A stretch of 22,674 nt of DNA from a virus: positions 1 through 22,674 of IMG/VR virus record IMGVR_UViG_3300010885_009568; one strand, 5' to 3'. Below, in pieces: positions 2,902 to 21,937 of this stretch. The first letter of the stretch is position 1. Each line of letters begins with the position of its first letter. A model generated the notes under the pieces. The model searched no databases, was not told the DNA's origin, and was given only the letters and a program-made list of their open reading frames with translations. The translations under genes were made by a program, and so were the position numbers.

Positions 2902-4356
2902 ATGGCTACATGTAAAATAATAATTAAAGACGAAGTTAATGCTAAGATAGAGGGTCTAGAACTGGACGCTAGACGAGCGTTAATGAAAAAGTTTGAGTTT
3001 GAAATACCCGGCGCAAGGTATCTACCCGCAGTGCGATTGGGTAGATGGAATGGTAAAATCAGTTACTTTAGTCTAGCCGGTAGTACATATATCAATCTAC
3101 TAGAACAAATCATTCCCGTACTGGATAGTTACGGTTATGACATTGAGCTAGAAGATTTACGTACATACACTACTACATTCAATTTTGATGAAGTGTCCTC
3201 GGAATCATTCGCTGACCGAACTTGGCCAGTAGGGCATCCCAATGCTGGACAACCTATCACTCTGCGAGATTACCAAGTAGAACTTGTCAACCACTTTTTG
3301 GCCAATCCACAGTGCTTGCAAGAGATTGCCACAGGTGCAGGTAAGACAATCATGACTGCGGCTCTTAGTAAAAGCGTAGAAAAGTATGGTAGATCAATTG
3401 TCATTGTACCAAACAAAAGTTTGGTAACACAAACTGAAGAAGATTATGTCAATCTTGGATTAGACGTTGGTGTTTATTTTGGTGATCGCAAAGAATACAA
3501 TAAGACTCATACTATTTGCACTTGGCAGTCATTGAACAATCTACTAAAGAACACTAAAGCCGGTGAAGCAGATATTCCTATTAGAGAATTCATTGAGGGT
3601 GTGATTTGTGTCATGGTTGATGAAGTTCATCAAGCAAAAGCCGATGCTCTTAAAACATTGTTGACTGGGGTGTTTAGTCATGTTCCTATTCGTTGGGGAT
3701 TGACCGGTACTATTCCCAAAGCCGAATTCGAGCGAACTTCACTTCTAGTAAGTTTAGGTCCTGTTATAAACAAACTTGCCGCAAGTGAGTTGCAGGATAT
3801 GGGAGTATTAGCTAGGTGCCATGTAAACATTATTCAATTAAAAGATAATGTTGGATTTTCAAATTATCAGAGTGAATTGAAACATTTGCTTGAAAACAAA
3901 GAACGTCTAGACAAGATAGCCCAATTAATCAATAAGATCAGCGATACTGGCAACACTTTAGTACTGGTAGATAGGGTAAATGCAGGTAAGGAAATTATCA
4001 GTAGACTTTCCGATGCGGTTTTCGTTAGCGGCGAAACTAAGCTAACCGAAAGAAAAGAAGAATATGACGAAATCAAAACAAGCACGAACAAGATATTGGT
4101 TGCTACTTACGGTGTTGCCGCTGTTGGAATTAATTTGCCTCGGATTTTTAATCTGGTGCTTATTGAGCCCGGAAAATCATTTGTTAGGGTTATTCAAAGT
4201 ATTGGGCGCGGAATAAGAAAAGCCGAAGATAAGGACGAGGTGATGATTTGGGATATTACAAGTGACTGTAAGTTTGCCAAACGTCATCTTACTCAAAGAA
4301 AGGTCTTTTACAAAGAAGCACTCTACCCGTTTAGTATGGAAAAGTTGAGCTATTGA
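2902..4356 (+). CDS. uvsW: UvsW-type superfamily 2 helicase
   Basis: 484 residues with ordered SF2 motifs: L-R-D-Y-Q (121-125), Walker A ATGAGKT (143-149), DEVH (240-243), LTGT (267-270), motif V ATYGVAAVGI near 401-410 and motif VI QSIGRGIRK (432-440). In T4, UvsW unwinds branched DNA and R-loops, regresses forks and helps switch from origin- to recombination-dependent replication. Residues 1-115 match the small N-terminal domain seen in UvsW proteins (GARYLPAVRLGRWNGKISYF). It starts 1 nt after the HARP-like gene with no SD, so it is probably coupled. Its stop codon lies inside the -35 box of the next promoter. Confidence 0.92.
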   Translation: MATCKIIIKDEVNAKIEGLELDARRALMKKFEFEIPGARYLPAVRLGRWNGKISYFSLAGSTYINLLEQIIPVLDSYGYDIELEDLRTYTTTFNFDEVSSESFADRTWPVGHPNAGQPITLRDYQVELVNHFLANPQCLQEIATGAGKTIMTAALSKSVEKYGRSIVIVPNKSLVTQTEEDYVNLGLDVGVYFGDRKEYNKTHTICTWQSLNNLLKNTKAGEADIPIREFIEGVICVMVDEVHQAKADALKTLLTGVFSHVPIRWGLTGTIPKAEFERTSLLVSLGPVINKLAASELQDMGVLARCHVNIIQLKDNVGFSNYQSELKHLLENKERLDKIAQLINKISDTGNTLVLVDRVNAGKEIISRLSDAVFVSGETKLTERKEEYDEIKTSTNKILVATYGVAAVGINLPRIFNLVLIEPGKSFVRVIQSIGRGIRKAEDKDEVMIWDITSDCKFAKRHLTQRKVFYKEALYPFSMEKLSY

Positions 4357-4381
4357 CTCTTGGCTAAAAATAGCATATAAT
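4353..4381 (+). promoter_or_regulatory. Near-perfect sigma70 promoter giving a leaderless start at 4388
   Basis: TTGACT at 4353-4358, a 17-nt spacer, TATAAT at 4376-4381, then six bases (AGAAAA) and ATG 4388. Transcription normally starts about 7 nt after the -10 box, which is the A of the ATG. There is no Shine-Dalgarno. The -35 box overlaps the uvsW stop codon (4354-4356). Confidence 0.8.
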
Positions 4382-4387
4382 AGAAAA

Positions 4388-4888
4388 ATGCACATACTTA
4401 CATTAGAAAATAAATTTTATAACCTAGAAACTCTTCCTGAAGAGATTGATGACCTTAGATTTGCCATTCTTGACAATTCAAATCCAAGTGCAGTTGATTA
4501 TCATTATATTCCGCTGATCTTTTTAGAATCATTTAATGCTCCTGCACTAGTATTAAAAGTAGGGGACTTTAAACTTAAGATGCCGTTAGATTGGCAAATC
4601 TTAATTGGTGAAAGTGAACACGGTGATTTAGAAACACTGCCACTAACTAGCCTAAATGATAGAGGATTTAACGCATTTGAGTTTAATCCGCTATCAGCAT
4701 TTTCCCCAACTTTCTTGCCCATTGAGATAGTAGACATATATAATGAGGTAACTTGGTATGCACCTAGACTTAGAAATGGACAGTTCCTATGCGTTCCATT
4801 AGGAGAAGGTTACAAACCCAAATGCATTTACTTTGTTAAAGAGATTAGTAGAAACTGTGAAATTGTAGATTACAATCAGGTGTTTTAA
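4388..4888 (+). CDS. Hypothetical protein, 166 aa, probably translated from a leaderless mRNA
   Basis: ATG 4388 is the first in-frame start and lies exactly 6 nt after a TATAAT box, with no SD. The sequence is mixed alpha/beta and acidic at first, with a conserved-looking stretch around residues 120-150 (NEVTWYAPRLRNGQF, then VPLGEGYKPKCIYFVKEI). I recognise it as a recurrent marine T4-like phage protein of unknown function, often near replication genes. No catalytic motif seen. It heads an operon that continues into the gp62-like gene. Confidence 0.7.
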   Translation: MHILTLENKFYNLETLPEEIDDLRFAILDNSNPSAVDYHYIPLIFLESFNAPALVLKVGDFKLKMPLDWQILIGESEHGDLETLPLTSLNDRGFNAFEFNPLSAFSPTFLPIEIVDIYNEVTWYAPRLRNGQFLCVPLGEGYKPKCIYFVKEISRNCEIVDYNQVF

Positions 4889-4889
4889 T

Positions 4890-5165
4890 ATGAAGTGGTT
4901 TGATAAGTGGTTTTCTAGAAAGTGTAGACAGGCTTGGCAAAATAGTAACACTGCACAAATACCTACATCTATAATAGATACTAGTTTGAGATCGAATGGT
5001 CTAAACTTCACATTTTATACTGCTAACGGTGGTTATGTCATAGAGTATCACACATTTAACCTCGAATCAGATAGTAGCTATCATTCTCTGCATATCATCA
5101 CTAAAGATCAAGATTTAGGAGAAGGCATTGCTCATATTATTACATACGAGATGTTAAAGAAGTAA
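4890..5165 (+). CDS. Hypothetical protein, 91 aa
   Basis: ATG 4890 lies 1 nt after the previous stop (TAAtATG) without SD, and its TAA overlaps the next ATG by 1 nt (TAATG at 5163-5167), so it is likely coupled on both sides. A basic, amphipathic N-terminus (MKWFDKWFSRKCRQAW) is followed by strand-rich sequence (LNFTFYTANGGYVIEYHTF). Function not recognised. The N-terminal helix could contact membrane or nucleic acid, but this is only a guess from composition. Confidence 0.65.
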   Translation: MKWFDKWFSRKCRQAWQNSNTAQIPTSIIDTSLRSNGLNFTFYTANGGYVIEYHTFNLESDSSYHSLHIITKDQDLGEGIAHIITYEMLKK

Positions 5166-5755: not shown

Positions 5756-6425
5756 GCATAGTTGTGAATTTTGCAACCGCAGTTTCGTAAGAGAATCTAC
5801 TCTAATGAGTCATCTGTGTGAGTATAAACACCGATGGATGAACAAGGACGCGCATGGAAATCGTATTGGGTTTCAAACTTGGTTGCAGTTCTATACTAAG
5901 AATAGCCCAAGCACTAAAAAGCGAACATATATGGACTTTATAAAGAGTCCATATTACACCGCATTTCTTAAATTTGGTAACTATTGTATTGATGTGAATG
6001 TCATAAACATTCCCAGATATGTGGATTGGTTATTAAAGAATCAGATTAGTGTTGACTCTTGGAATACTGATACGAACTATACAAAGTTTATTATCGCATA
6101 TCTTAAGGAAGAAAATCCGTTTGACGCAATTGCTAGAAGTATTGAAACTACTATTGCACTAGCAGAGAAAGAAAGAATTCAAACTAAAGATAGTCTGCGT
6201 TACGGCAACAAGAATCGTATATGTCATGAAATCACAGCTGGCAGAATTAGTCCATGGATGCTTTATCATAGCGGAAGCGGGAAAGAGTTCTTGTCTACGC
6301 TAGATGAGATGCAAGTTAAACTGGTTATTGACTATATTCAACCTGAGCAGTGGGCTATTAAGTTTAGACGAGATCCGGCAATTGTACCCCAAGTACAGGA
6401 ACTGTTAGCCGCCGGCGGCTATTAA
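5715..6425 (+). CDS. C2H2 zinc-finger protein, 236 aa
   Basis: The N-terminus holds a C2H2-type metal site: C17-x2-C20-x12-H33-x5-H39 (CEFCNRSF ... LMSHLCEYKH). The rest is largely helical, with aromatic-rich segments (SPYYTAFLKFGNYCIDV) and a C-terminal segment with ISPWMLYHSGSGKEFLSTL. I recognise this architecture from marine T4-like phages, always unannotated. Its place after the gp62-like gene and before small early genes suggests a replication or late-transcription accessory role. The only ATG that keeps the finger is 5715, giving a 41-nt overlap with the upstream gene. Confidence 0.75.
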   Translation: MKKSKNTKETLETKHSCEFCNRSFVRESTLMSHLCEYKHRWMNKDAHGNRIGFQTWLQFYTKNSPSTKKRTYMDFIKSPYYTAFLKFGNYCIDVNVINIPRYVDWLLKNQISVDSWNTDTNYTKFIIAYLKEENPFDAIARSIETTIALAEKERIQTKDSLRYGNKNRICHEITAGRISPWMLYHSGSGKEFLSTLDEMQVKLVIDYIQPEQWAIKFRRDPAIVPQVQELLAAGGY

Positions 6426-6426
6426 A

Positions 6427-6705
6427 ATGGTCAATGTTCCTTCAGACTTTCAAGATTATGACGATGACGATCCTAATATTGAATTTAGGCGTGCCAGAGT
6501 AAAATACTGGTGTGCGCTTAAAGTATTGGGTAAAGAGTTTGCAGACATAGAGGATAGTTCCCAATGGGAAAACTTTGTATATTGGGTAGAAGATAAGTAT
6601 GGGTTCAAAGTGATTTTTCATTCGGGAAATGAACCGGCAATTACAGATATGTACACTATCACAGATGAAGCCAAATTTGTTTTCTTTAAGCTAAAATACC
6701 TGTAA
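6427..6705 (+). CDS. Hypothetical acidic protein, 92 aa
   Basis: ATG 6427 lies 1 nt after the stop of the zinc-finger gene (TAAaATG), so coupling is likely. The N-terminus is strongly acidic (DFQDYDDDDPNIEF), followed by Trp- and Tyr-rich helix and strand segments (WENFVYWVEDKYGFKVIF). No motif recognised. Acidic, aromatic small proteins like this are common among early phage products, but no target is evident. Confidence 0.6.
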   Translation: MVNVPSDFQDYDDDDPNIEFRRARVKYWCALKVLGKEFADIEDSSQWENFVYWVEDKYGFKVIFHSGNEPAITDMYTITDEAKFVFFKLKYL

Positions 6706-6717
6706 ACTGTTTAAGTT

Positions 6718-6945
6718 ATGTTAGACTTTCACTTTAGATATGCACCTCATGATACTTGGCAAGATTACCTTTATCAGATTGGAAAAAGGTGTATGCCAGA
6801 CACAGCATATACCGCAATGCAGAAAAAATATCCCGGAGACTATACGCTACAGCAAAGATATGATAGTGATCTAGGTGGTTACTATTATACCATGCATTGG
6901 GAAAATGAAGCAGGTAAAACTTTTTGGTTATTGAAGTACTCATGA
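6718..6945 (+). CDS. Hypothetical protein, 75 aa
   Basis: Starts at ATG 6718, 12 nt after the previous stop with only a weak SD (TAAG). Twelve aromatic Tyr/Trp/Phe residues in 75 (DLGGYYYTMHWENEAGKTFW) give a strand-rich appearance. The TGA at 6943-6945 is 1 nt before the next ATG. It shares its style with the flanking small genes and lies in a consistent coding direction. No family recognised. Confidence 0.55.
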   Translation: MLDFHFRYAPHDTWQDYLYQIGKRCMPDTAYTAMQKKYPGDYTLQQRYDSDLGGYYYTMHWENEAGKTFWLLKYS

Positions 6946-6946
6946 A

Positions 6947-7180
6947 ATGACCGTAAAACTTAAGGTGCGGTTACTCAAGCATAAGGAATTCATTCCTTGG
7001 TTAGAAAGAGAAGTTGGACCATTGAAGCATAGTAAACCTATCGTTGGATGGACAGGTAGTGGATGGAAAGTGTATTATGAAGGTGTCTCTGAGGATGGGC
7101 CGCAACCGGCACCTATGATGATTACTGTAGATATTGAAGATGAGAAAAAAGCTCTGTGGTTTGCATTGAGGTGGTCATAA
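6947..7180 (+). CDS. Hypothetical protein, 77 aa
   Basis: ATG 6947 follows the preceding TGA by one base. The protein begins with a basic segment (MTVKLKVRLLKHKEF) and ends in a hydrophobic aromatic stretch (KALWFALRWS). The ending WFALRWS resembles that of the preceding 75-aa protein (FWLLKYS) and of the 92-aa protein (FFKLKYL), so the three consecutive small proteins may share a fold or be old duplicates. Role unknown. It is the last gene before a 118-nt gap with a promoter. Confidence 0.55.
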   Translation: MTVKLKVRLLKHKEFIPWLEREVGPLKHSKPIVGWTGSGWKVYYEGVSEDGPQPAPMMITVDIEDEKKALWFALRWS

Positions 7181-7844: not shown

Positions 7845-8420
7845 ATGAAGTTTAATTCTGATGTGGACATAGATTTGGGAGATAGAAATAAATTATTGAC
7901 CGTAATCAAGCACATCCCTGCTAGTATGCGTAACGCCAATCCTATTAGAAAACATGCTACCGGGGTACATGTTACAGAAATACCATACGACCCCGTTAAT
8001 AACATGGCTGCTATTGATTACAAAGAAGCAGAGAAGCGCGGGTATTTTAAGTTAGACTTACTGAACGTGCATGTCTACGAGCAGGTTAAAAGTGAAGAGC
8101 ACCTACTAGAATTAATGAAAGAGCCAAATTGGGCTAAGTTGAGTGATCCTATCTTTGTAGAAAAGTTGATTCATCTGAGTAATCATTATCAATCGATTAG
8201 AAAAATGCCTGAGATTATTAATAGCATTCCTAGACTTGCGATGTTCCTAGCAATAATTAGACCTAGTAAGAAGCATTTAATAGGTTTACCGTGGAAAGAG
8301 ATAGCAAAGACAGTGTGGGAAAAAGATTCTACTGGCTATCAGTTCAAGCAGTCCCATAGTTTGGCCTACGCGCAACTAGTAGTAGTTCATATGAACTTGC
8401 TGAGCGAAAACAAAAAATGA
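7845..8420 (+). CDS. Miniature DnaE-like (C-family replicase) protein, 191 aa
   Basis: Motifs of the bacterial Pol III alpha subunit appear in the right order in a very short protein. SDVDIDLGDR (5-14) matches the PDFDVDF catalytic strand; KHATGVHV (36-43) matches KHAGGVVI; IDYKEAEKRGYFKLDLL (57-73) matches 'QFDKSDVEYAGLVKFDFL' with the third catalytic Asp at D71; AMFLAIIRP (132-140) matches ALVALFRPGP; and FKQSHSLAYAQLV (167-179) matches FNKSHSAAYALVS. The PHP domain and most finger elements are absent (bacterial DnaE is about 1160 aa). It could be a reduced polymerase, a non-catalytic factor or a binding decoy. SD AAGGAAA at 7833-7839; its stop overlaps the next ATG (ATGA). Confidence 0.78.
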   Translation: MKFNSDVDIDLGDRNKLLTVIKHIPASMRNANPIRKHATGVHVTEIPYDPVNNMAAIDYKEAEKRGYFKLDLLNVHVYEQVKSEEHLLELMKEPNWAKLSDPIFVEKLIHLSNHYQSIRKMPEIINSIPRLAMFLAIIRPSKKHLIGLPWKEIAKTVWEKDSTGYQFKQSHSLAYAQLVVVHMNLLSENKK

Positions 8421-12944: not shown

Positions 12945-12952
12945 GATAAATA
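12945..12952 (+). promoter_or_regulatory. T4-type late promoter (GATAAATA)
   Basis: GATAAATAC begins at 12945, 15 nt after the gp41 stop. The predicted start is near 12958, giving a 12-nt leader with AGGA (12959-12962) ahead of ATG 12970. It drives the 81-aa protein and the 1105-aa polyprotein-like gene. Confidence 0.7.
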
Positions 12953-12969: not shown

Positions 12970-13215
12970 ATGCAGAAAAAAACTAGAAGTCTGTTGGAAG
13001 AATTGGAGGCTATTGGCAGTAACCGTGATATTAATCATATCATAGAAAGCCGTGCTAACAATGTCATTGCCAGCGCCATAAATTTACTAGAACTGATCAG
13101 TAAGCATTATCCCGGCGAAAAAGCAGAAATTCTAGAAAAGAAGCTATTGAGTTCCATAAAGAGCAAAGACCAAGATAGGTTTTCTAAGTCTCTGAGGAAA
13201 AAAAATGAGATTTAA
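12970..13215 (+). CDS. Hypothetical helical protein, 81 aa
   Basis: First gene after a late promoter, with AGGA 7 nt before ATG 12970. The product is fully helical and charged (SLLEELEAIGSNRDINHIIE, then AINLLELISKHY, then KSLRKKNEI) with no Cys. It overlaps the following large gene by 11 nt. I recognise the type as a short, unannotated marine T4-like phage protein usually placed near this large gene. A chaperone, scaffold or core-protein role for the large product is a guess from the coupling. Confidence 0.7.
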   Translation: MQKKTRSLLEELEAIGSNRDINHIIESRANNVIASAINLLELISKHYPGEKAEILEKKLLSSIKSKDQDRFSKSLRKKNEI

Positions 13216-16200
13216 CGAAATTTATGAAGCCGGTGATCCTAATAAGCCAGACATAGGTCCGGGCAGGGTAAAAGTTCCTCGTTTTAAGCCGGACGTTGCG
13301 GGAAGAGGTGGACCCAATTGGATAAACAGCAAGCTTCATAATATGGCTACCAACATAGCGGCTGCCCGAATGGCAGCTGAACCATTTCATCCTGAAGATG
13401 AACAGGGTGATGCGTATGCTAGAGCATACGGCACAGGATCGACACTTAATGTGTCACCAAAAGAACTGGCTGCAAGACGAAAGGATATTAAACGTAAGTT
13501 AGCGGCTGAACAGTTTGTAAAAGCGGCAACACGTAAATTTTTACAGCGCATAGATAGAGACAAACAAGATCATCTTAACGATCCAGACAATCCAACATTT
13601 GTTTGGCCAAACACTGAAGAAGAATGGAAGAGATGGATAGATTACGAAATTGAAAAACTAGCAACGTCTTCTCAAGATAAAACATCAAAAAAATCATCAC
13701 CATCACTCCCTTTTAAAATTTTGGATTATGACACATTAAGCACTGAATTTGCAAAAGCCGCTATGAATAGCCGAATAAATCAAGATCCTACAGTAGGCGC
13801 AGCGGACGATTATGAACTACAAAGAATACTAGGCAAAATAAGTGAAAAGGTATATGACTATCTAGACCCTCCTGTCGACAGGACTAAGGAGCATCCCGGC
13901 ATTTCTGCCAGAAGAACTGCCGTTAGACCAAAAGAGCCAAAAGAGCGTAGAAGTCAAGCTTCTACGGTCCCTAATCCATCAAACCTTAATCCAGTAGACC
14001 CATCGGAACAGCAACCTGCAGCAGCTCAAACATTCAAATGGGGAGGAGAGCAATGGACTAACGGGCCCAATGGATGGACTAATTCTAAAGGTAGAACAGC
14101 ATCAGCTAATGATGCAACAGTATTAAATCAGGCTATGTCGCAACAACAAAATCCAGCTCAACCTAGACCTGGGTATGGCCCTAAAAATAGACCTGCGCAA
14201 GCACAACAACCGGCACAAGCTGCACAAGCACAACGACCGGCACAACCTGCACAAGCACAACAACCGGCACAACCTGCACAAGCACAACAACCGGCACAAG
14301 CTGCACAAGCACAACGACCGGCACAGGCTGCACAAGCACAACGACCGGCACAGGCTCCCGCACAATCTAAACCTGTAACACCTGTTGGACAGAAGCCTAA
14401 GGTAAAACCCGATCCTAAAAATCCCGGCAAGTTTGTAGACGCTGTTACTGGAAAACCAGTAGCTATGGAAGAACGCTTGTACAAAAGCAAACCAAATGAT
14501 TTGTCAAAGAATGAACCAATGAATCTTGCCGAATCATTACGCAAACTAAGCGATAGATTAGATCAGCTAACATCTAAGAATCACATTAATGAAAGTAAAA
14601 ATTCTTATAGGCATAACACCTTAAATGAAGGTGGAGCAATGCCCGGCGTAGGACCTATACATATTAGCGAAATAAATCCTACACTTACCGCTTTGCAAAA
14701 AAAGTTAGGTCTTGATTTGAAAAACAATACTTTGGGCAGTGTAGGTAAAAAAGAGTTTAGTGGCGATATAGATATTGCTGTAGACATTGATCCCGCTGAA
14801 GCGGCTAAGCTTGCTGAAAGATTAAAAACAATTCCTGAAATACTGGACCTCTCAAGAGGCTCAGTAATAAGCACTAAAGTGAAAATTGCTAATTATGATC
14901 CTAGTAAAAAAAGTCCCGATCCTACCAAACCAAGAACAGGATATGTGCAAATAGATTTTATGTTTGGTAATCCGCAATGGTTAAAAGATTTTTATCACGC
15001 GCCGTATGAGAAGGATAGTAAGTACAAAGGTGTACATAGAAATATATTAATTTCTGCAATTGCAGCGCATTTAGATAAGATAGAAAGCAAAGAAAAAATT
15101 GATGACGGCAGACCGGTTATTTCCACGAGGTGGATGTGGAGCCCAACAAACGCACTAGTGCGGATAGAAAGAACTCCAGAAAAAAATAAAAAAGGTAATG
15201 GTTACACTAAGAAGAATGACAACAGAATTATAGCAGGACCATATAGAGATCTTAATGATGTCGCAAAGCATCTAAGACTAAACAGTGCTGATAATTTGTA
15301 TTCATATGAAACTCTACGAAAGGCAATGGATAAAAACTATTCGCCAAACTTGATTGATCAAATACTAAAAGATTTCGCTAATAACGATGTGATAAAAGAA
15401 TTGGGCGTGCCTGAAGATATCAAAGAGTACACGTTAGAAAGTAAAGAGTGGTTCAAAAACATAAAGAATAGATTGTCTGATCTTACCGAAGCTAGAGACG
15501 CTAGCCCTCGCATCCCTCACCCGGAAGATGCAATATTTACTAGTCAAGCTGAAGCACTGAAATATGAACAAGCATTAGAAGATACGATTACTGGTGCAGA
15601 TAAGATCAGCATCAAGTGGGATGGTGGTATAGCTCTATTCTTTGGTACAAGCCCGGAAGGTAAGTTCTTCATTAACGACAAGTATATGCCTGATGGTTTC
15701 TATGCATACAGTCCGCAAGATTGGGAACGATATGACACTACTATTAAAAAGTCAAGAACAGCAAGACCCGATCTTTACAACAAAATAGCAGTTATTTGGA
15801 AAGGGTTGCAGCAATCGGTGACCGACACCGGTATCTACAAGGGTGACTTAATGGATGTAAGTGACGGCAAGGCACTTCAACCGGTAAACGGCAACTTTCA
15901 ATTTAAGCCAACTACTGTTACATACAATGTTCCTGCAGCCAGTCCGTTAGGAAAATTAATTCAGAATAAAGTTGGAGTAATAGTAGTACACCAGCGCAAC
16001 GGCGCACCTTGGGATGGTAAGACAGGATTAGAGAACCGCAGTAACGTAGCCATTATACCTCCTAAAGCTGGAGTACAATTCAAGTTAAAGAATCCGGGTA
16101 GACTAGCAACAGATGCCCGCAATGCAGTATTACAACAAGGCCCTATTGCGGAAAAATTCTTGAACGGGATGGCAAAAACAGCCAAAGACTCGATACAAAA

Positions 16201-16522
16201 GTATTTTAATCATAAGATTACTAGTCAAACTAACGAAGATTTGCTGCCGTGGTTGCAGAAGGAAGTAAGCGGTAAACAGTATCAACTATTAACTGCGTAT
16301 ATTAAAGACAATTCTGAAGGTATGAAGGCACTAGAAAAAGTATGGAATAGCGTATACAAACTGAAAGAAAATCTAGTTTCACAGCTTGAGAAACAAGTAA
16401 GCGGGTTTTCCCAAACAATCAACGGACAGCCCGGCGGTGAAGGATTTGTAGTACCCACTAGAGCCGGCCTTGTAAAGTTAGTAAATCGTATGCAGTTTGG
16501 TAGCGCACACTTCAATAAGTAA
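13205..16522 (+). CDS. Multidomain late protein: CTS-like N-terminus, PAQ repeat, nucleotidyltransferase and KxDG ligase-like domains
   Basis: 1105 residues; SD GAGG about 8 nt before ATG 13205. Order: residues 1-9 MRFNEIYEA, like T4 capsid-targeting peptides; 10-430 mostly disordered, with 9-residue PAQ repeats (331-384); about 485-745 a Pol-beta-type nucleotidyltransferase with G511-S512, S519-G520-D521-I-D523 and D584 (YVQIDFMF); about 768-1100 a ligase-like domain with K804-W-D-G807, Y878-K-G-D-L-M, EGFVV (1079-1083) and VKLVNR (1090-1095). Candidate prohead-protease sites: IYE8/A, LAE443/S, INE463/S, LNE475/G, LTE762/A. The domains likely act on nucleic-acid ends, perhaps after injection with the DNA. 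Substrate unknown; the packaging idea is inference. Confidence 0.82.
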   Translation: MRFNEIYEAGDPNKPDIGPGRVKVPRFKPDVAGRGGPNWINSKLHNMATNIAAARMAAEPFHPEDEQGDAYARAYGTGSTLNVSPKELAARRKDIKRKLAAEQFVKAATRKFLQRIDRDKQDHLNDPDNPTFVWPNTEEEWKRWIDYEIEKLATSSQDKTSKKSSPSLPFKILDYDTLSTEFAKAAMNSRINQDPTVGAADDYELQRILGKISEKVYDYLDPPVDRTKEHPGISARRTAVRPKEPKERRSQASTVPNPSNLNPVDPSEQQPAAAQTFKWGGEQWTNGPNGWTNSKGRTASANDATVLNQAMSQQQNPAQPRPGYGPKNRPAQAQQPAQAAQAQRPAQPAQAQQPAQPAQAQQPAQAAQAQRPAQAAQAQRPAQAPAQSKPVTPVGQKPKVKPDPKNPGKFVDAVTGKPVAMEERLYKSKPNDLSKNEPMNLAESLRKLSDRLDQLTSKNHINESKNSYRHNTLNEGGAMPGVGPIHISEINPTLTALQKKLGLDLKNNTLGSVGKKEFSGDIDIAVDIDPAEAAKLAERLKTIPEILDLSRGSVISTKVKIANYDPSKKSPDPTKPRTGYVQIDFMFGNPQWLKDFYHAPYEKDSKYKGVHRNILISAIAAHLDKIESKEKIDDGRPVISTRWMWSPTNALVRIERTPEKNKKGNGYTKKNDNRIIAGPYRDLNDVAKHLRLNSADNLYSYETLRKAMDKNYSPNLIDQILKDFANNDVIKELGVPEDIKEYTLESKEWFKNIKNRLSDLTEARDASPRIPHPEDAIFTSQAEALKYEQALEDTITGADKISIKWDGGIALFFGTSPEGKFFINDKYMPDGFYAYSPQDWERYDTTIKKSRTARPDLYNKIAVIWKGLQQSVTDTGIYKGDLMDVSDGKALQPVNGNFQFKPTTVTYNVPAASPLGKLIQNKVGVIVVHQRNGAPWDGKTGLENRSNVAIIPPKAGVQFKLKNPGRLATDARNAVLQQGPIAEKFLNGMAKTAKDSIQKYFNHKITSQTNEDLLPWLQKEVSGKQYQLLTAYIKDNSEGMKALEKVWNSVYKLKENLVSQLEKQVSGFSQTINGQPGGEGFVVPTRAGLVKLVNRMQFGSAHFNK
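14195..14356 (+). repeat. Six tandem 27-bp units coding for a 9-aa PAQ repeat
   Basis: Exactly 162 bp, 6 x 27. Each unit encodes A-Q-A-Q-(Q/R)-P-A-Q-(A/P), with only a few base differences between copies (caa/cga, gct/cct, caa/cag). It lies in the disordered linker of the 1105-aa protein. The repeat keeps antisense frames open, which explains apparent ORFs on the other strand. The near identity of copies suggests recent expansion and possible length variation between strains. Confidence 0.95.
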
Positions 16523-19867: not shown

Positions 19868-21937
19868 ATGGCCATCATTCAAATTTCCCAAATCCAACAG
19901 AGAACCGGTAATCTTGTAGACTTGCCGCAACTAAATGAAGCCGAATTTGGCTGGGCATCAGACACCAAACAGTTGTTTATAGGTAAAACTGTTCCGGCTG
20001 AGAATGTTGAAGTTCTCACCGCCTACTCTAATATTGCGTTCAGTCAAATTACAGGAGCTGTTGGTAATTTAAATATTACCGCATCCGTTGCTAACGGAGA
20101 AGTGCTAACTTTTGACGGTACCAATTGGGTAAACCGAGGCGGTAATGCCGGCGGCTTTATTAATTTAGGTAATGTTGATAATGTGCATCTTGGTGGAGGG
20201 ACAAGCGGTTATGTATTACAAACAGACGGCACTGGCAATCTAAGTTGGACTGCACAGACTGGGAACGGTGGAGGTAATGGTACACCCGGCGGTGCAACTA
20301 CACAGATTCAGTTTAACAGTGCAGGGGCTTTTGGCGCTAGTGCAAATTTCACATATAACTCTTCTAGTTCACTATTAACAGTAAATGGCAATGCAAATGT
20401 TGGCAATCTAAATGCTAGTTCGTTGGTCAGTGCCTCATTGTTTAGTTCCAATATTGCAACAGGAACTCCTCCCTTATCAGTACAATCATCTACACAGGTG
20501 CCAAACTTATATGCGACCTATGCAACTACTGTAACAAGCGCAGCACAACCTAATATTACAAGTGTAGGTACATTAAGTACGCTTACCGTAACAGGCAATG
20601 CTAATGTAGGCAACATCGGTGCTACTAAAGGTGTATTCATTAATGTAAGCGGAAACGGTAGCGCATTAAGTTCATTGACGGGTGCTAATGTTTCGGGCGC
20701 CGTTGCATTTGCAACTACTGCCAATGGTGTAGCTGCTGCAAATATTGTAGGAGCAGTGCTAACCGCAAACGCATTATTAACAAATACCTCATCTGCTACA
20801 AGTGTATATCCCACGTTTGTCACAAGTTTATCTAATGGTTACTCACAACAGTATGTTAATTCAGCAATTAGTGCGAATCTAGCAAACGGTTCCGTAACCG
20901 CAACTACATTCATTGGCAATGTTATTGGTAATATATCCGGCAATTTTATAGTGAATGGAAGCAATACTGATGTGTTGTTTAATGATTCCGGTGCTGCAAA
21001 CGCTACTGGTGGATTTACTTTTAATAAGACATCCAATCTCGTAACAGTAAACGGCAACCTAGTTTCATCTAATGCCAATTTAGGAAACTTAGTAATTGCT
21101 AACCACTATCAAGGTGTAATAGAAACACCAGCTCAACCAAATATCACATCGTTGGGTACCTTAAATATATTGAATGTAGCTGGCGTCGTAACTGCACCAA
21201 TATTCCAAGGTGCATTCAACGGAGACGGTTCGGGATTGAGTACATTGTCCGGCGCTAATGTCACCGGTGCCGTAGCATACGCAACAACTGCTAATTCAGT
21301 TGCCGGAGCTAATGTATCGGGTACCGTAGCAAACGCTAACAACTCATCGTATTTGGGCGGCGCACCAGCAGCAAGTTATTTGTTGACTAATGGAACAGGT
21401 GCTGGATTAAGTGCAATTACTGGTGCCAACGTCACTGGTTACGTAGCAAATGCAACTTACGCCAACACTTCAGGTAACGTATCTCATGGCATATTCTTTA
21501 GTAATAATGGATTGGGCGCCGGTTCAGGTATTGGTTTTGATGGAACAGCCACTACTACTATTAGTTACAATACTATTGGTGCGTTAGGAGTTGGAAACTT
21601 CACTGGATCAAATCAATTGTTAGCCCCGACCGGGTATCAGGTTCTTCCCGGTGGCCTCAAGATGGCTTGGGGTATGACGCCAACCCCAGCTATTACTAAC
21701 TCTTATCCAGGCGCAACGGTAGTATGTCCTTTTGCAACGGGAGTAAACTTTACTCAAGTATTTTCAGCGCAGGCTACTTTAATTAATCCATATGGCGACA
21801 ATGGACAGGGTGCATATTACGATGTATGGGCACAAGTGGTAGGCTTCACCACTGCCAGTGTGCGGGTAATGGTGCAAGGATCAAGTGGTTCCTCCGGTGG
21901 TTCTTGGAATATATACTACTTGGTTATTGGAAAATAA
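19868..21937 (+). CDS. Tail fibre-like protein with tandem beta modules
   Basis: 689 residues. Residues 1-40 (MAIIQISQIQQRTGN ... ELDT-like GWASDTKQLFIGK) match the short N-terminal particle-binding segment common to phage fibre and tropism proteins. Residues 140-540 hold repeated beta modules: TTQIQFNSAGAF / NTDVLFNDSGAA, TVNGNANVGNL / TVNGN...NLGNL, AQPNITS(V/L)GTL twice, and G(N/D)GS(A/G)L followed by GANV(S/T)GAVA(F/Y)ATTAN. The C-terminal part (587-689: TGYQVLPGGLKMAWG ... YYDVWAQVVGF ... NIYYLVIGK) looks like a gp53-like fibre tip domain. Probably trimeric, host-recognition function. Late promoter; SD inside a hairpin. Confidence 0.85.
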   Translation: MAIIQISQIQQRTGNLVDLPQLNEAEFGWASDTKQLFIGKTVPAENVEVLTAYSNIAFSQITGAVGNLNITASVANGEVLTFDGTNWVNRGGNAGGFINLGNVDNVHLGGGTSGYVLQTDGTGNLSWTAQTGNGGGNGTPGGATTQIQFNSAGAFGASANFTYNSSSSLLTVNGNANVGNLNASSLVSASLFSSNIATGTPPLSVQSSTQVPNLYATYATTVTSAAQPNITSVGTLSTLTVTGNANVGNIGATKGVFINVSGNGSALSSLTGANVSGAVAFATTANGVAAANIVGAVLTANALLTNTSSATSVYPTFVTSLSNGYSQQYVNSAISANLANGSVTATTFIGNVIGNISGNFIVNGSNTDVLFNDSGAANATGGFTFNKTSNLVTVNGNLVSSNANLGNLVIANHYQGVIETPAQPNITSLGTLNILNVAGVVTAPIFQGAFNGDGSGLSTLSGANVTGAVAYATTANSVAGANVSGTVANANNSSYLGGAPAASYLLTNGTGAGLSAITGANVTGYVANATYANTSGNVSHGIFFSNNGLGAGSGIGFDGTATTTISYNTIGALGVGNFTGSNQLLAPTGYQVLPGGLKMAWGMTPTPAITNSYPGATVVCPFATGVNFTQVFSAQATLINPYGDNGQGAYYDVWAQVVGFTTASVRVMVQGSSGSSGGSWNIYYLVIGK

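Follow-up and report, generated by a model that had tools for sequence, protein, structure and literature searches.

The locus

We analyzed a stretch of DNA of 22,674 nucleotides, referred to below as the window, which comprises positions 1 to 22,674 of IMG/VR virus record IMGVR_UViG_3300010885_009568. This 22.7-kb sequence is a fragment from an uncultured virus with T4-type genes, including those for a uvsW-like helicase, a gp61-like primase, a gp41-like helicase and exonucleases. Our subject is the open reading frame at 13205-16522, whose 1105-residue product very probably combines two enzymes, a nucleotidyltransferase (NT) related to DNA polymerase X (Pol X) and a ligase-like domain of the DUF6267 family. 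A preliminary description of the sequence had proposed a fusion of a Pol-beta nucleotidyltransferase and a KxDG ligase-like domain, and the motifs, structure models and fold matches reported below confirm it. The gene and its modules are as follows (a slash marks the predicted cut in a protease site):

13205..16522, forward strand: fusion gene with ATG start, 1105 aa, a proposed polyprotein of N-terminal module, Pol X-like NT and KxDG ligase-like DUF6267 domain
13205..13231, forward strand: capsid-targeting-like N-terminus MRFNEIYE/A with predicted prohead-protease site IYE/A, residues 1-9
13232..14620, forward strand: N-terminal module (residues 10-472), low in complexity around 330-390, where it has a PAQ run
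14621..14632, forward strand: predicted prohead-protease site LNE/G (residues 473-476), where the NT module begins
14630..15409, forward strand: Pol X-like NT domain, residues ~476-735, palm and thumb
15482..15493, forward strand: predicted prohead-protease site LTE/A, residues 760-763, between the NT and ligase modules
15494..16519, forward strand: KxDG ligase-like domain (DUF6267), residues 764-1105

Library matches of the 1105-aa protein are confined to its second half and consist of DUF6267 (E 3e-29) and PHROG 455, neither with an assigned function. Residues 10-472 had no family match in these scans, and PDB sequence and profile searches returned no relevant match.

The nucleotidyltransferase domain

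Two short motifs hold the predicted catalytic residues of the NT:

14765..14773, forward strand: catalytic D521-I-D523 of SGDID, invariant, aligned to SGDMD of pol beta
14954..14956, forward strand: third catalytic Asp, D584 (VQIDF), invariant, aligned to RRIDI of pol beta

The signature GS-x6-SGDID is present as described (G511 and S512, followed by D521 and D523), and D584 lies within YVQIDFMF. The three aspartates do not vary among 40 aligned NT relatives of 22-67% identity. An AlphaFold2 model of the domain (pLDDT 89.4, pTM 0.78), for which, as for the ligase model below, the input sequences came from the window and viral contigs only, superposes on Pol X. Foldseek returned 48 matches with E<=1e-3 (prob 1.0 at best), and the best 50 listed were all pol beta or lambda, with E from 1e-4 to 1e-3. 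VIA structure comparison of model residues 1-240 reached a Z of 9.2 at best, in an alignment of 184 residues that covers both palm and thumb; for the uridylyltransferase TUT7, the match is limited to the palm (86 residues, 2.0 A).

When the profile of 55 divergent NTs was compared with that of 11 Pol X sequences (ten from annotated records and one of human pol beta), E was 1.2e-5 over 147 collinear columns, in which the three Asp, the thumb helix and the next strand were matched. Comparisons of unrelated families in the same profile set, used as controls, gave E 0.05 or worse. Pfam scans of the NT relatives yielded scattered chance matches only, such as Polbeta with E 0.04 in two members. For the palm family PF14792, no NT was above the cut-off, and the sole match, to the NT of locus L119, fell below it (E 7.8e-4); because this cut-off is not reached, we call the domain Pol X-like and do not file it as Pol X. 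RlaP was considered and rejected as an identity, as PF10127 matches none of the NTs in 16 records; its only match there is in G008 at 57.6 kb, away from the NT of that genome at 91.3 kb.

These results support well the assignment of the domain to the Pol-beta superfamily of nucleotidyltransferases, with the palm and thumb of Pol X as its predicted closest relatives. Pol X enzymes (pol beta and lambda, bacterial PolX, and phage Pol X such as that of Yersinia phage GN1/YerA41) have in common with the NT the GS...GDxD motif and third Asp, the palm/thumb fold and a collinear profile. They differ in that stand-alone NT genes lack an 8-kDa lyase or PHP domain, and in that the NT adjoins or is fused to a ligase and carries an N-terminal tag of the form [LI]xE[AG].

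A second Pol-beta-like family of about 338 aa, with the start MKIRDIILEGGWDT and the pattern GSSAYH...GDIDLQM...VQIDFMW, occurs in several loci between NT and ligase genes that lie ~1 kb apart (L006:856-1869; L117:2006-3019; L144:2066-3079; L150:2941-3966; L152:4251-5225). It has no Pfam match, and compares with the NT at a profile E of 2e-6.

The ligase-like domain

The motifs of covalent nucleotidyltransferases follow one another in the DUF6267 domain:

15614..15625, forward strand: motif I, K804-W-D-G, with the predicted adenylylated lysine, invariant
15842..15850, forward strand: motif III-like G880-D881-L882, G and D invariant
16097..16390, forward strand: helical insertion before motif IV, residues ~965-1062 (helices 208-305 of the model)
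16436..16450, forward strand: motif IV, G1078-E1079-G-F-V, E invariant
16475..16489, forward strand: motif V, K1091-L-V-N-R1095, with K, L, V and R invariant

Thus all of the elements previously quoted (KWDG, YKGDLM, EGFVV/GEGFV and VKLVNR, besides the two NT motifs) exist, and their key residues are invariant in relatives. Here these are K804, D806, G807, D881, E1079, K1091 and R1095 in 38 ligase relatives of 24-67% identity; D881 stands where Glu is usual in motif III. Because the catalytic residues of both enzymes are invariant across distant relatives, their motifs are not due to chance. PF19782 (DUF6267) matches the window domain with 103 bits against a cut-off of 27, as it does all 38 relatives.

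The ligase model (AlphaFold2, pLDDT 92.5, pTM 0.88) superposes on RNA and DNA ligases, more weakly than the NT model does on Pol X. All of the best 50 rows listed by VIA are RNA or DNA ligases (Z 5.8-7.2), headed by the Naegleria RNA ligase (NgrRnl), RNA editing ligase 1 (REL1) and T4 Rnl1. Foldseek rows to CorA, coils and cohesin were set aside as unrelated. We assign the domain to the ligases because the VIA list is homogeneous and motifs I, III, IV and V occur in order; the fold match across motifs I-V implies that K804, E1079 and K1091 would share one pocket. No signal was seen between the profiles of DUF6267 and of classical phage DNA ligases (E 0.18), so that the ligase claim rests on motifs and fold. 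PF01068 is not among the families listed as matched by DUF6267 relatives, and the C-terminal OB domain with motif VI that marks PF01068-type ATP-dependent DNA ligases was not found in the DUF6267 domain. The Pfam RNA_ligase profile PF09414 does not match the window domain either, and in 16 records it matches other genes only. In sum, support for a covalent nucleotidyltransferase/ligase fold in DUF6267 is moderate.

Pairing of the two genes in relatives

About 177 loci were retrieved from viral contigs in scans for which the complete protein, its NT region and a profile of the ligase served as queries. Two overlapping genes, NT then ligase, are the usual layout in these relatives, and NT-ligase fusions were found in several divergent lineages. 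Among 76 ligase-seeded environmental loci, 43 had a separate NT gene in the flanking sequence, which in nearly all cases lay immediately upstream of the ligase gene and overlapped it, 14 were fused and 19 had no NT visible, some of the latter ending just upstream of the ligase. NT and ligase are therefore paired in 57/76 of these loci, fused ones included. For all seeds taken together, the 128 distinct ligase loci comprise 78 with adjacent genes, 17 fusions, 14 with an NT within 3 kb upstream, 9 without NT despite at least 2 kb of upstream sequence, and 10 that were too short, a total that is biased because one scan was NT-seeded.

Phages PA5oct, Phosso and Atu_ph07 encode distant NT relatives, each with a gene for a KxDG and EG-V/K-motif protein nearby. 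In Atu_ph07 this gene (AUZ94878) overlaps the NT gene, in Phosso gp446 overlaps gp447, and in PA5oct EST35_0228 lies three genes upstream of the NT. EST35_0228 aligns to the DUF6267 profile in the motif IV-V region (E 1.5e-4), and the Phosso gene does so below significance; a viral-contig search for relatives of EST35_0228 found none. NT and ligase-like gene thus stay together despite another ligase subfamily and a reversed gene order.

Two arrangements stand apart. In locus L125, two DUF6267 paralogs (403 and 360 aa; 3947-5155 and 5980-7059), one of the cyanophage type, flank an NT gene. Vibrio phage 2.275.O encodes the Pol X homolog NVP2275O_117 and the DUF6267 protein NVP2275O_191 far apart in its genome (L196:2177-2941; L205:5001-6176).

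DUF6267 in cultured phages

DUF6267 was found in 466 phage records, nearly all from cyanophages, and in hundreds of environmental viral contigs. It corresponds to T4-GC 71 of cyanophages, so the cyanophage relatives mentioned in the preliminary description do exist. A literature search found no mention of DUF6267, and the sources searched assign no function to it. The cyanophages, pelagiphages and methylophages with DUF6267/T4-GC 71 resemble the window in direct homology to residues 764-1105, in a gene position after gp41 and, for S-PM2 and S-CRM01, in a late-type promoter motif: in these two, a terminator-like sequence and then AATAAATA lie just upstream of the DUF6267 gene. These late-type motifs weaken the idea, which we also considered, that cyanophage DUF6267 is an early replication ligase.

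In contrast to the window, P-HM2 and HTVC008M have no NT gene beside DUF6267. Another difference is seen in cyanophages and methylophages (S-PM2, Melnitz and P-TIM40; loci L212, L214 and L215), where DUF6267 adjoins a HIGH-type cytidyltransferase, T4-GC 190. In Melnitz and P-TIM40 these cytidyltransferase-like neighbors start with MKKFSEIIEARG and MRFLDFIKEAKETK, which resemble T4 capsid-targeting sequences. T4-GC 190, the cyanophage neighbor of DUF6267, was detected in S-SM1 virions (PMC3037559). In one S-PM2 record, DUF6267 is fused with this cytidyltransferase.

Probable late expression

The fusion forms a two-gene unit with the small gene in front of it:

12945..12952, forward strand: GATAAATA, a motif like a T4-type late promoter, situated 25 bp ahead of the 81-aa gene
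12970..13215, forward strand: 81-aa protein, PHROG 11854 (virion structural protein), just before the fusion
9657, 12946, 16553, 17093, 18036, 19837 and 21948, forward strand: positions of ATAAATA, a clean late-promoter map of the window

All seven forward ATAAATA are intergenic; intergenic sequence makes up 8% of the window, and 0.7 would be expected there. Six of the seven have a listed downstream gene and lie 11-55 bp before it. Late-type expression of the fusion gene is thus supported by its promoter motif, and the late promoter of the preliminary description holds as a motif. The first description, of expression with the structural and not the replication genes, needs one refinement: the gene has its own late-type promoter, but it comes right after the genes for the gp61-like primase and the gp41-like helicase. 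Virion-structural PHROGs surround the open reading frame, and the small gene that encodes the 81-aa protein is conserved in many relatives, between the gp41-like helicase and the NT cassette.

Predicted packaging and cleavage signals

Internal head proteins of T4 carry N-terminal propeptides of 10-19 residues that target them to the prohead, where gp21 cuts after Glu (PMC9026906); T4 Alt is cut at ITE-6 and LTE-619 (PMC5694885). The motif [LI]xE[AG] occurs exactly three times in the fusion (residues 6-9, 473-476 and 760-763), once at the start of each module. In the NT and ligase families, proteins typically begin with M-[RK]-x-x-[DE]-[FIL]... or with a very short start, followed by [LI]xE[AG] just before the conserved core. 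Within the first 40 aa, this motif was found in 88/100 NTs (88%) and 79/107 ligases (74%), compared to 103/1145 other genes (9%); as the sequences are homologous, the counts describe families and not independent events. Residue shuffling as a control gave 9 for the NTs and 10 for the ligases. The tag residues lie outside the confidently folded parts of the AlphaFold2 models, and a looser motif, [LIV]xE[AGS], stands just before the ligase core in 12/16 distinct fusions. Unrelated neighbors begin with the same kind of tag (MKINEIINEG, MKIRDIILEGG, MEFIKDITES).

The N-terminal module of the fusion is possibly the counterpart of a separate tagged gene that lies upstream of the NT in relatives; its 470 residues match that gene weakly (E about 0.01), partly through low-complexity sequence.

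A gp21 gene was present in 4/4 surveyed records with full-length gp23 (L126, L177, PA5oct and Phosso), and in the L177 genome, which has a fused NT-ligase, the gp23 propeptide contains HLAE/A. The PA5oct record lists the NT as a structural protein detected by electrospray ionization tandem mass spectrometry (ESI-MS/MS), and likewise the product of the small gene immediately preceding it (EST35_0230, which starts MRLDEIQ). Given the signatures at the N-terminus and the module boundaries, we consider that NT and ligase are probably packed in the virus head, for which the PA5oct record is indirect evidence. T4 internal head proteins (IPI-III, Alt) would then be a close model, sharing a short N-terminal propeptide that ends in (I/L)xE, late expression and, for the relatives, gp21/gp23 heads; the fusion differs in its cargo, a polymerase-ligase pair, and in its single chain of three modules, whose junctions each bear a site.

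Interpretation and alternatives

The reading we favor is a virion-packaged pair for gap filling and end joining, made in this virus as a cleavable polyprotein. It is somewhat likely to be correct in our estimate, and it is the simplest one because it covers the folds, the pairing, the late-type expression, the tags and the PA5oct record. From the computed folds, invariant catalytic residues, gene pairing, late-type motif and pattern of tags and sites we infer catalysis, cleavage and packaging of the 1105-aa protein as well as its time of action and substrate. One precursor chain would hold the two enzymes of a single end-repair reaction. The protein would be made late, and its N-terminus MRFNEIYEA would draw the precursor into the T4-type prohead, where a gp21-type protease would cut after E8, E475 and E762 and so free NT and ligase inside the head. 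Packaged alongside the genome, the two enzymes would be ejected into the next cell and could there repair nicks, gaps or cut ends at a time when no viral enzymes have yet been made anew. In this reaction the NT, as a minimal Pol X-like polymerase/nucleotidyltransferase, would add missing nucleotides at a broken 3' end, and DUF6267, as a KxDG ligase without OB domain, would adenylylate itself at K804 and then seal the 5' phosphate to the 3' hydroxyl. Late expression is odd for a repair enzyme, and the likely explanation is that the protein is packed in heads and ejected, as the capsid-targeting and prohead-protease signatures suggest. Both predicted folds are those first proposed, and the interpretation in the preliminary description is in this sense supported. 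For the substrate we lean slightly to DNA because the NT has the palm and thumb of Pol X; RNA is nearly as likely in view of the structural neighbors of the ligase and the published theme of RlaP and RNA ligases (PMC7824862).

The pair, packaged or not, might instead restore and reseal tRNAs that anticodon nucleases of the host have cleaved, a role proposed for RlaP with RNA ligases. We regard such RNA repair as a possible, tentative alternative. The best VIA rows for the ligase are RNA ligases, yet the Z scores of RNA and DNA ligases differ by no more than about 1. Of the annotated viral models, DUF6267-type members come first, and the next entry named as a ligase is the Atu_ph07 RNA ligase, encoded beside the NT gene of that phage. 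The OB domain is absent, as in several RNA ligases. Pairs of RlaP with Rnl1/Rnl2 in jumbo phages (PMC7824862) provide the concept that a Pol-beta enzyme and a KxDG ligase act together in large phages; they differ in that the RlaP and RNA_ligase profiles miss the NT and ligase of the window, whose pair has a late/virion context. It also speaks against RNA repair that one of the genomes encodes a true RlaP and an RNA ligase separately, at another place, and that the palm and thumb of the NT are those of a DNA polymerase family.

Late DNA repair or maturation without packaging, in which NT and ligase mend nicks and gaps of concatemers before these are packaged and the N-terminal motif means something else, appears unlikely. 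It would fit the gene neighborhood (gp61/gp41-like genes, with exonucleases near) and the late-type promoter motif. It would also fit the report that no known DNA ligase is present in most jumbo phages of subgroup 2.1 (PMC7824862), with which P-HM2 and HTVC008M agree, as no PF01068 ligase was found in these DUF6267 phages. However, it leaves the [LI]xE[AG] tag on unrelated neighbors and the mass spectrometry record of the PA5oct NT unexplained, and a classical ATP DNA ligase (PF01068) is encoded as well in 10/19 surveyed records, so that the pair is unlikely to be a mere replacement of gp30, the replication ligase. A structural head or tail protein with dead or repurposed enzyme folds would suit the virion-structural PHROGs and late-type promoters all around and the large low-complexity N-terminal module; it is very improbable, given that the catalytic residues of both enzymes are invariant in relatives down to 22-24% identity.

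Several observations, besides the classical ligases just mentioned, weigh against a packaged polymerase-ligase pair. For the ligase model, Foldseek against the PDB gave nothing below E 1e-3 (best ligase E 0.33), and a Z of 7.2 for this fold can reflect a common arrangement and is not decisive alone. DUF6267 ends about 14 residues past K1091 in motif V, and therefore has no OB domain. The site motif [LI]xE[AG] is short, 12% of NTs and 26% of ligases lack it in exact form, and the junction sites in fusions may be remnants of what were once start regions. The [LI]xE tag is missing from the N-terminus of the PA5oct NT, the sole NT recorded from virions, and the PA5oct ligase-like gene is not marked as detected by mass spectrometry. 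Finally, neither gp21 nor gp23 is present on the window contig, which is a fragment.

Sets of Pol X and DNA ligase for gap filling and sealing are encoded by viruses such as African swine fever virus, which belongs to an unrelated virus group and has them as separate proteins, in contrast to the fusion in the window. If packaged, the pair would, as far as we know, be without precedent in bacteriophages as a polymerase-ligase repair pair delivered by the capsid, and the [LI]xE[AG] tag would make it simple to search uncultured T4-like phages for further enzymes that are injected. With DUF6267 as a probable ligase and an upstream Pol X-like partner, two widespread uncharacterised families become directly testable enzymes. 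We are close to undecided, with a slight lean to the negative, on the wider proposal that many aquatic T4-like viruses carry a gap-filling and ligation kit of Pol X-like enzyme and DUF6267 in their capsids, as a polyprotein in some lineages, which is injected before gene expression to repair the incoming genome or host-cleaved RNAs. The proposal bears on the published puzzle that many such phages seem to be without DNA ligase (PMC7824862).

Other genes in the window

Three further genes of the window were recorded. At 146-658, a 170-aa protein with the start MISIKDFMETVKYRLTEGSD has a tag-like LTE/G start, and its only library match is a weak one to a HicB-antitoxin PHROG. At 7845-8420, a protein of the 191-195-aa size class matches DNA polymerase PHROG 11778; a similar short gene is found at L210:2955-3539, and both may represent a split polymerase piece. 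At 19868-21937, a 689-aa protein without PHROG match has the start MAIIQISQIQQRTGNLVDLPQLNEAEFGW, which resembles in style the start of the PA5oct structural protein EST35_0241.

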